Shown here one piece after another: positions 54,342 to 55,745 of a stretch of 64,000 nucleotides of DNA. The stretch covers positions 1-64,000 of the forward strand of contig JBBDYQ010000009.1 of the NCBI GenBank assembly GCA_040901445.1, read 5' to 3'. The position numbers and the translations under genes were made by a program. The notes under the pieces are model-generated. The model saw only the letters and a list, made by a program, of their open reading frames with translations, was not told where the DNA came from and searched no databases. Source of the stretch: Thermoleophilaceae bacterium (GTDB lineage: Bacteria > Actinomycetota > Thermoleophilia > Solirubrobacterales > Thermoleophilaceae). Each line of letters starts with the position of its first letter. Position 1 is the stretch's first letter.

Positions 54342-54755
54342 GTGGCGCGCTCCAGCTTCCCCGTCGAGGTCCTCACGCCGGAGGGCGAGGTCTGGAACGG
54401 CGAGGTCGAGATGCTCTCGACCCGCACCACCACCGGCTCGATCGGCGTGCGGGCCAACCACGCGCCGCTCATGGCCATCCTCGAGCCAACCGAGCTGCGG
54501 CTGTACCAGTCCGAGACGGAGGTCGTGCGCTACGCCCAGGGCGAGGGCTACCTCCAGGTGGTCAACAACTCGGCGCTCGTCCTGGTGGAGGACGCCATCG
54601 AGCCTGGCTCTTTGAACCGCTCTGATCTCGAGACCCGCCTGAGCGAGGCGCGCTCGGCGCTGGAGCGCTCCGAGGAGGGCTCGGAGGAGCGGGCGCGCTA
54701 CGAGCGCGATGTGCGGCGCTACGAGCGCTTCCTGGAGGTCGCGGGCAGCTCGTAG
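54342..54755 (+). CDS. atpC: F0F1 ATP synthase subunit epsilon
   Basis: 137 residues from GTG 54342. SFPVEVLTPEGEVWNGEVEMLSTRTTTGSIGVRANHAPLMAIL is the beta-sandwich domain with the GxxGVxxxHAP motif. The C-terminal two-helix hairpin (~90-135, LSEARSALERSEEGSEERARYERDVRRYERFLEV) could inhibit ATP hydrolysis. It is the last gene of the operon, followed directly by GC-rich hairpins that may terminate it. Confidence 0.94.
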   Translation: MARSSFPVEVLTPEGEVWNGEVEMLSTRTTTGSIGVRANHAPLMAILEPTELRLYQSETEVVRYAQGEGYLQVVNNSALVLVEDAIEPGSLNRSDLETRLSEARSALERSEEGSEERARYERDVRRYERFLEVAGSS

Positions 54756-54757
54756 CC

Positions 54758-54807
54758 CCCAGGGGGGCGAACGTCCCGCGCGCCCAGGGGGGCGAACGTC
54801 CCGCGCG
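54758..54807 (+). repeat. Two exact tandem copies of a 25-bp unit
   Basis: CCCAGGGGGGCGAACGTCCC plus GCGCG occurs at 54758-54782 and again at 54783-54807 without change. Each unit contains a CCC/GGG hairpin and the CGAACGTCCCG core that starts the flanking hairpin repeat. It sits 3 bp after the atpC stop and could terminate the atp transcript. Confidence 0.8.
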
Positions 54808-54840
54808 CCCCCCTTATACGGGGTGATGCGGGACGTTGAG
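54793..54840 (+). repeat. 48-bp hairpin repeat, left copy (overlaps the DUF559 start)
   Basis: Begins CGAACGTCCCG and ends TGCGGGACGTTGAG. The outer arms AACGTCCCGC/GCGGGACGTT and the inner CCCC/GGGG pair to give a stem-loop. 38 of 48 positions match the right copy at 55698 with no gaps. The ATG of the enclosed gene (54826) and its GGGG ribosome-binding candidate lie in the 3' part of the hairpin. Confidence 0.75.
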
Positions 54841-55731
54841 GTGACCAAGTTGGCGGGTGTGCAGTTCAACCGCGTGTCGCGGGCGCAGCTGATGGAGCTG
54901 GGACTGAACGAGCGCGCGATCGAGCGCCGCGTGGCGGCGGGCCGGCTCGTGATAGTGGAGCAGGCCGTGTTCGCGTTGGCCCCCGTCCTCGAGCACGACG
55001 AATGGGGACGCTGGATGGGCGCCACCCTCACGGCGCCCGAGAGCGTGCTGAGCGGCGTAAGCGCCGCGGCAGCTCGGGGATGCTGGTCGCTGTCGCGGCG
55101 GTTCGAGACGGTCACCCGGCCCGGGAGTGGTGGTCCTCGGCGCCACGGCGGTGTGCTCGCCTATCGCAGCTCGACGTTGGAGGGCGAGTGCGAGGTGCTG
55201 CGCGGGATCCCGATCACCTCGGTGCCGCGGACGCTGCTCGATCTCGCCGCGCGTGGCGTGAGCACACGGGCACTGGCGAGAGCGGTCCGCGAGGCGGTTC
55301 GGTTGGGACTCACGACCGTCGGGGAGCTCGCCGACTGTATCGGCCGCCACCGCGGCCGCCGAGGGTCGGGCCGGCTTGCTCGCGTCGTCGCCCGCTACGC
55401 GGGGCTGCCGCTCGAACGGGCGCGCAGCGGCGCTGAGGTCCGGGCGTTGGAGGTCCTTCGCGACGCGGGCCGCCCGTTCCCCAGGTTGAACGCCCGCATC
55501 GCGGGTGAGGAGGCCGACCTCAGTTGGCGGGACGGGCGGCTGATCATCGAGATCGACGGCGGCCCGTTCCACCTCGACGTGGGCGAGGACGCTCGCAAGG
55601 AATCCTGCTGGCAGGCGGCGGGCTGGACCGTCCGGCGGCTGCCCTCCGACGACGTCTACGAGCACCCGGAGCGCCTCCTCGCCCTCGCCCCCCGCATCGA
55701 ACGTCCCGGAAGCCCCCCTTCGGCGGGGTAG
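54826..55731 (+). CDS. AbiEi-like wHTH plus DUF559 (Vsr-type nuclease fold) protein
   Basis: 301 residues. The N-terminal ~50 residues (FNRVSRAQLMELGLNERAIERRVAAGRLVIVEQAVFAL) form the winged-helix start shared with AbiEi antitoxins. The middle (GIPITSVPRTLLDLAARG) is the linker typical of this family. The C-terminal ~100 residues are a DUF559 domain: ARSGAEVRALEVLRDAG, then EADLSWRDGRLIIEIDGGPFH with the Asp and Glu-x-Asp of a PD-(D/E)xK/Vsr-like core, and WTVRRLPSDDVY. A GTG immediately before the ATG is also possible. Both ends of the gene lie inside copies of a 48-bp hairpin repeat. Actual nuclease activity is not established for this family. Confidence 0.8.
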   Translation: MRDVEVTKLAGVQFNRVSRAQLMELGLNERAIERRVAAGRLVIVEQAVFALAPVLEHDEWGRWMGATLTAPESVLSGVSAAAARGCWSLSRRFETVTRPGSGGPRRHGGVLAYRSSTLEGECEVLRGIPITSVPRTLLDLAARGVSTRALARAVREAVRLGLTTVGELADCIGRHRGRRGSGRLARVVARYAGLPLERARSGAEVRALEVLRDAGRPFPRLNARIAGEEADLSWRDGRLIIEIDGGPFHLDVGEDARKESCWQAAGWTVRRLPSDDVYEHPERLLALAPRIERPGSPPSAG

Positions 55732-55745
55732 TGCGGGACGTTCGG
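55698..55745 (+). repeat. 48-bp hairpin repeat, right copy (contains the DUF559 stop)
   Basis: Begins CGAACGTCCCG, ends TGCGGGACGTTCGG. The outer 11-bp stem CGAACGTCCCG/CGGGACGTTCG is perfect, and the inner stem CCCC-ttcggc-GGGG has a UUCG-like loop. The TAG stop of the enclosed gene is at 55729-55731, the same relative place as the ATG in the left copy. Same orientation as the left copy, 905 bp apart. Confidence 0.75.

Follow-up and report, generated by a model that had tools for sequence, protein, structure and literature searches.

REP-type palindromes are among the commonest repeats of bacterial genomes, and no enzymes other than RAYTs have so far been tied to them. In REPtrons, REP/REPIN palindromes occur together with a TnpA_REP (RAYT) tyrosine transposase (PMC3733652, PMC8266576, PMC3116915). 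CGTC-tagged REPs, dRS3 and Rickettsia palindromic elements are likewise dispersed palindromes, with CGTC near their end, and the CGTC REPs, which form a large set, were reported in 2013 without a dedicated transposase gene (PMC3733652). A further point of comparison is the DUF559/Vsr-like endonucleases, such as VsrA of Caulobacter, where a DUF559 protein was shown to account in vivo for a response to DNA damage (PMC12907096).

Here we analyze a locus in a 64-kb stretch of DNA from a Thermoleophilaceae bacterium (hereafter, the window, 64,000 nucleotides in all) in which a DUF559 gene carries a palindrome at each end. We found that the gene belongs to a restricted clade whose members are linked to palindromes of gene-specific sequence, that cognate copies of these palindromes are dispersed with a preference for gene 3' ends, and that the clade genes share a conserved 5' element. 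We found no description of such a gene-palindrome system in the literature searched, and our results suggest a previously undescribed partnership of gene and repeat that resembles REPs and their transposase but involves an unrelated enzyme.

Results

A DUF559 gene and its two terminal palindromes

The DUF559 gene lies between atpC and an aldo/keto reductase gene, and the locus comprises the following features.

54793..54839, no strand assigned: left (5') palindrome, 47 bp, arms AACGTCCCG/CGGGACGTT, holding the start codon
54826..55731, + strand: DUF559 gene, 301 aa, AbiEi-like N-terminal region with wHTH, C-terminus of Vsr-like PD-(D/E)XK nuclease type
55698..55744, no strand assigned: right (3') palindrome, 47 bp, of the same family as the left one, holding the stop codon

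As an earlier note on this DNA had stated, positions 54793-54840 and 55698-55745 form an ungapped direct repeat in which 38 of 48 bases agree, spaced 905 bp from start to start, with the ATG (54826) inside the left copy and the TAG (55729-55731) inside the right. Both copies also fold into hairpins far better than shuffled sequences (RNA z-scores of -6.5 and -4.4), and the first residues of the protein, MRDV, are coded by a palindrome arm. Five occurrences of the 9-mer AACGTCCCG were counted in the window where 0.54 would be expected, and since all five sit within elements of the DUF559 locus, we rejected a single motif of the DNA-uptake type. The codon-usage score of 54826-55731 is very low compared with adjacent genes (22 for 303 codons), consistent with recent acquisition or weak expression.

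The same note's assignment of a wHTH plus a Vsr-like nuclease is consistent with Pfam, which places DUF559 at residues 231-285 (PF04480, 23.1 bits against a cut-off of 20.6) and a weak AbiEi_4 wHTH at residues 17-42; profile comparison likewise shows that the N-terminal region resembles AbiEi models. Thirteen of 14 clade members match Pfam as DUF559 nucleases, and the catalytic-type residues E204, D231, E242, D244 and H249 are invariant across all 14, which makes an active Vsr-like nuclease plausible. Pfam reported only DUF559 and AbiEi_4 in the window protein and no Y1 domain (PF01797), no AbiEii nucleotidyltransferase toxin adjoins the gene, and searches of plasmid and viral sequences gave no match to the protein. 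A profile search of solved structures returned only a weak endonuclease-like match (3hrl, E 0.16), and a structure model built from the single sequence was too poor for use (pLDDT 43).

Solitary palindromes across the host genome

We searched the host genome (3.54 Mb in 25 contigs) for the pattern AACGTCCCG-N-CGGGACGTT and obtained 25 copies with perfect arms, all of 42-43 bp, compared with none for the reversed control. A covariance model extended the family to about 28 close and about 16 divergent copies, many of the latter with arms GAACGTCGC(G/T). The aligned copies vary in the interior but not in their outer arms, and the inner half-site types are common to 5' and 3' arms in 16 of 24 cases against 5.0 expected, indicating that the element consists of two inverted, interchangeable halves, like a REPIN. 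Most copies follow a stop codon at a distance of 3-30 nt, with hardly any in divergent regions. Judged by gene calls from a simple home-made codon-usage caller, 20 of 44 are plainly flanked by convergent genes; the test compared 22 of 43 with a background of 15-16% (p ~1e-7).

None of the 25 aligned copies has GTAG at its ends, which nearly all read YGAACGT/ACGTTCR. No Y1_Tnp (RAYT) transposase was detected in the whole host genome, and mobilization by a RAYT was therefore rejected. Comparison with Rfam families gave chance matches only, and the exact arms, scanned in named genomes with the host genome itself left out, gave isolated single matches in unrelated taxa only.

Two side observations concern family structure. 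In the host, copies with arms GAACGTCGC(G/T) (loci L070-L081 and L025) make up a second family of roughly 12-16 copies of 45-46 bp, for which no cognate DUF559 gene was detected and which is possibly the leftover of a lost paralogue. In addition, tandem partial or second palindromes abut a full copy at L003 (~1501-1580) and in the flanks of L063 and L084, with another arm subtype (GAACGTGCATTTCT) in genome G005.

The unit recurs in a restricted DUF559 clade

A second, independent unit was found in a genome from another family of the order (G041): a DUF559 gene (L247) is enclosed there by two palindromes that share their outer arms (CGAACGTCCC) with those of the window and are spaced 897 bp apart. 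This gene begins ATG-CGGGACGTTCG, so that MRDV is encoded by the palindrome arm as in the window, and its product is 54% identical to the window protein over the full length. The site is unrelated to that of the window and adjoins what reads from its sequence as a GMC-type oxidoreductase gene. Elsewhere in G041 (L241-L245, at ~1750-2150 of each) the palindrome lies within an intergenic repeat of about 400-500 bp, present in at least five copies that are mostly 87-92% identical; here the palindrome is part of a longer element, MITE-like or structured.

Of 232 genomes of the order, only 15 gave close homologues with a profile built from the window and G041 proteins; a 14-member profile, run on 399 genomes of the class, found homologues in 14, every one of them in this order. 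Pooling the two profile searches gave 26 clade genes, including partial genes at contig ends; many of the compared genomes are fragmentary assemblies. In a phylogenetic tree the split between these 26 proteins and seven DUF559 paralogues of the host genome is fully supported. The window protein clusters with proteins of two other families (SH-aLRT 99) and not with those of its own family (G005, G018 and G012), which suggests horizontal transfer. The clade gene of G018 (L259) has two internal stop codons and is apparently a pseudogene; that genome still has many palindromes.

At clade loci, palindromes 40-52 bp long span the start codon, lie close upstream of it and/or sit at the stop codon. 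Palindrome sequences vary by gene (e.g., CGAACGTCCATTT, CGAACGTGAGCGCTGCCGG, CGAACGTCGGAATGTGGTGGC and GAGCGTCCGATAGTGGTCGC), with ends of the form YGARCGT...ACGYTCR recurring.

Palindromes are linked to the clade and paired with their cognate genes

We called a palindrome near a start or stop strict when 11 or more of its 12 outer positions paired; 17 of 26 clade genes have one, compared with 22 of 373 control genes (Fisher p=3e-13). Three of the 26 clade genes have strict palindromes at both ends, compared with 0 of 373 controls; nine fail the strict test, and some have a palindrome at one end only. Across 201 genomes of the order, 11 contain at least six CGAACGT...ACGTTCG palindromes, a count that outside the host hinges on the GAACGT pattern, and 8 of these 11 have a clade gene, versus 15 of 201 overall (p=2e-8). 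Within the host genome, two of eight non-clade DUF559 paralogues pass the generic strict test and none of the eight carries a GAACGT palindrome. The expectation that DUF559 paralogues would carry the repeat thus fails for eight of the nine DUF559 genes in this genome, but the seven of them placed on the tree belong to another clade.

Protein identity and palindrome similarity are positively correlated across the clade (Mantel r=0.53, p=2e-4), and solitary copies tend to match the gene-borne palindrome of their own genome best. This holds for 26/26 copies of the main host family and 8/12 of the divergent one, and for 6/6 in G005, 6/7 in G041, 11/20 in G128 and 1/1 in G156, but for 0/8 compared in G134. 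Genome G128 has three clade paralogues, at least two of which match distinct dispersed families (GAACGTCTGATCACCGTCGC; GAACGTTGGTTCACCGGGG). Dispersed families with no detected cognate gene comprise part of the host GAACGTCGC copies, one family in G128 and all eight G134 copies compared. Large families with GAACGTCGAGGAGATGTCGC and GAACGTCGAGCGTGTGTCGC in G128 and G134 best match gene palindromes of a sister species and not those of their own genome; these are either orphan families or ones whose genes were missed. As in the host, dispersed copies in G128 (n=20) prefer 3' ends, with 11 between convergent genes, 7 between tandem genes, 1 in a divergent region and 1 inside a gene.

Collectively, these comparisons demonstrate that this clade of genes is associated with palindromes and that gene and dispersed palindrome are paired as cognates. 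The likeness to REP-associated genes proposed in the earlier note is strengthened by independent recurrence of the unit, with gene-specific hairpins, in many genomes. The checks set out in that note gave a mixed outcome: among other things, the repeat is indeed widespread at gene 3' ends away from DUF559 genes.

A conserved 5' element and a putative promoter

Upstream of the start codon, three further features can be delineated in the window.

54762..54772, + strand: first copy of GGGGGGCGAAC, the clade-conserved 5' element, duplicated via a 25-bp tandem unit
54787..54797, + strand: second copy of GGGGGGCGAAC, placed 39 nt upstream of the ATG, a position kept in 20 of 24 clade genes
54814..54819, + strand: TTATAC, a -10-like hexamer that falls 6 nt before the ATG within the left palindrome's loop, putatively part of a leaderless promoter

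The element, GGGGGGCGA(A), usually stands 36-41 nt upstream of the ATG; 20 of 24 clade genes have it, compared with 3 of 374 controls (p=7e-27). The tandem units of the window are duplications of it: two 25-bp units do exist (54755-54779 and 54780-54804), yet the second overlaps the left arm, so that one unit is extra and not two as had been claimed. Clade genes also carry a CCTATAG/CCTAG-like hexamer about 6-10 nt before the ATG, other members having CTATAG/CCTAG where the window has TTATAC, and its position suggests a leaderless promoter. The original proposal that the left hairpin hides a ribosome-binding region was not supported; with this conserved element and hexamer, the left palindrome seems rather to belong to a promoter from which a leaderless transcript would start.

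Occupied and empty sites in relatives

We compared the locus with relatives of the host. In two members of its family an acyl-CoA dehydrogenase gene, which in the window lies three genes away, adjoins the atpC end or is one small gene off. For two of the host's palindromes, the flanking genes are neighbors in genome G002 with no palindrome between them, one pair nearly abutting; no family palindrome was found in the 1.4 Mb of this genome examined, and G002 has no close clade gene. The single-hairpin empty site anticipated between atpC and the reductase gene did not materialize in any relative examined; these lack both the DUF559 gene and the reductase there. More generally, two usable comparisons of occupied and empty sites, both at family distance, yielded neither a clean target-site duplication nor a single-hairpin empty site, and in genus g48 the orthologous site was not found in 400 kb of G134.

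Discussion

Several explanations for these observations can be weighed. One is that the palindromes are binding sites of a regulator, with the AbiEi/DUF559 protein autoregulating through the 5' palindrome and the dispersed sites forming a regulon or organizing the chromosome, all without mobility. AbiEi antitoxins, which the N-terminal region resembles, autoregulate via inverted repeats; moreover, the 5' palindrome overlaps the putative promoter, and co-variation of protein and palindrome is what one expects of a binding protein and its site. We nevertheless consider this explanation unlikely: the dispersed sites follow stop codons or lie between convergent genes and almost never in divergent promoter regions, the 3' end of clade genes often has a palindrome too, the nuclease residues are retained, and patchy, genome-specific, high-copy families fit spreading better than they fit a conserved regulon. 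An even less probable idea is that an unrelated transposase moves the palindromes, or recombination between flanking palindromes gains and loses the gene, with the 905-bp stretch a passive passenger. Direct 47-bp repeats could recombine, and relatives do lack the gene and the adjacent reductase after atpC, but the genome has no Y1 transposase and the cognate pairing is specific to the DUF559 clade rather than to random genes, leaving this explanation with very little weight.

Plain termination deserves separate attention, as the host-genome data taken by themselves favored ordinary terminators flanking a gene by chance, a reading that was dropped as a full explanation after the G041 unit came to light. 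Under it, the palindromes would be ordinary bidirectional terminators, one for the atp operon and one for the DUF559 gene, whose association is coincidental. The hairpins are strong, convergent genes flank at least 20 of 44 host copies, which mostly follow stops by 3-20 nt, and likewise 11 of 20 copies in G128. However, gene-specific palindromes are linked independently to one DUF559 clade in a dozen genomes, and coincidence leaves unexplained the co-divergence of gene and palindrome, the extreme conservation of the arms and the absence of the family from relatives such as G002, so that we regard pure termination as quite improbable. As an added role of the dispersed copies, termination is likely.

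The explanation we prefer, with a probability of roughly 0.65, is that the locus is a REPtron-like unit, in which the gene of a palindrome-specific nuclease is bracketed by its cognate palindromes while solitary copies are scattered genome-wide. An AbiEi-type wHTH combined with a Vsr-like nuclease would here take the place of the tyrosine transposase, with recognition, cleavage and mobility being what the sequences lead us to propose. The N-terminal wHTH would bind the cognate palindrome, and the intact nuclease would nick or cut at or beside it, or cut where a hairpin extrudes. As the break is repaired or copied, this could then spread short palindromes of about 45 bp, each made of two inverted interchangeable half-sites, in the manner of non-autonomous REPs/REPINs, and the gene-bearing unit itself would spread rarely, partly by horizontal transfer. 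The 5' palindrome may double as promoter and operator, since it overlaps the putative leaderless promoter and protein bound there would also limit its own expression. Copies would persist mainly just after stops because inserting there does no damage and the hairpin can terminate transcription in both directions; many dispersed copies may serve, or be tolerated, in this function. A point against this REPtron-like reading is that the very consistent 3'-end position could mean that termination is the main selected function.

A broader proposal, on which we are evenly divided, is that the locus represents an unrecognized class of mobile palindromes, in which a DUF559 nuclease with its own DNA-binding domain spreads its cognate palindrome and might mobilize other 'orphan' REP families too. 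If true, a second, unrelated enzyme class would join the RAYTs, implying that the arrangement of a gene plus dispersed palindromes evolved more than once, and part of the DUF559/AbiEi family would gain a function.

Comparison with known systems

Each of the systems related to this locus shares some of its features. Caulobacter VsrA has a C-terminal nuclease of the same family, but is tied to cytosine methylation and mismatch repair, and the part of its description considered here does not mention an association with palindromes (PMC12907096). The N-terminal region of the window protein fits AbiEi models of the AbiE type IV toxin-antitoxin system, but the gene has no adjacent AbiEii toxin and the protein has a nuclease domain. 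CGTC-tagged REPs are likewise dispersed palindromes with CGTC near the end, although here the CGTC is paired inside the arm and the CCA tail is missing; four proteobacterial DUF559 loci, a weak and small test, showed no evident CGTC REP, and a link between DUF559 nucleases and CGTC REPs is only a lead.

REPtrons share with this locus a gene bordered by cognate palindromes, few gene copies with many dispersed solitary palindromes, inverted half-sites, a position mainly 3' of genes (between convergent or co-directional ones) and genome-specific sequences tied to the protein. The DUF559 system differs in that its protein joins an AbiEi-wHTH to a DUF559 (Vsr-like) nuclease and has no HUH/Y1 domain, and in that its elements are 43-48-bp palindromes without a GTAG tag. 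The arrangement agrees with the published description of REPtrons (PMC8266576) apart from the unrelated enzyme and the missing GTAG, so that the DUF559 system would work like REP/RAYT without belonging to it.
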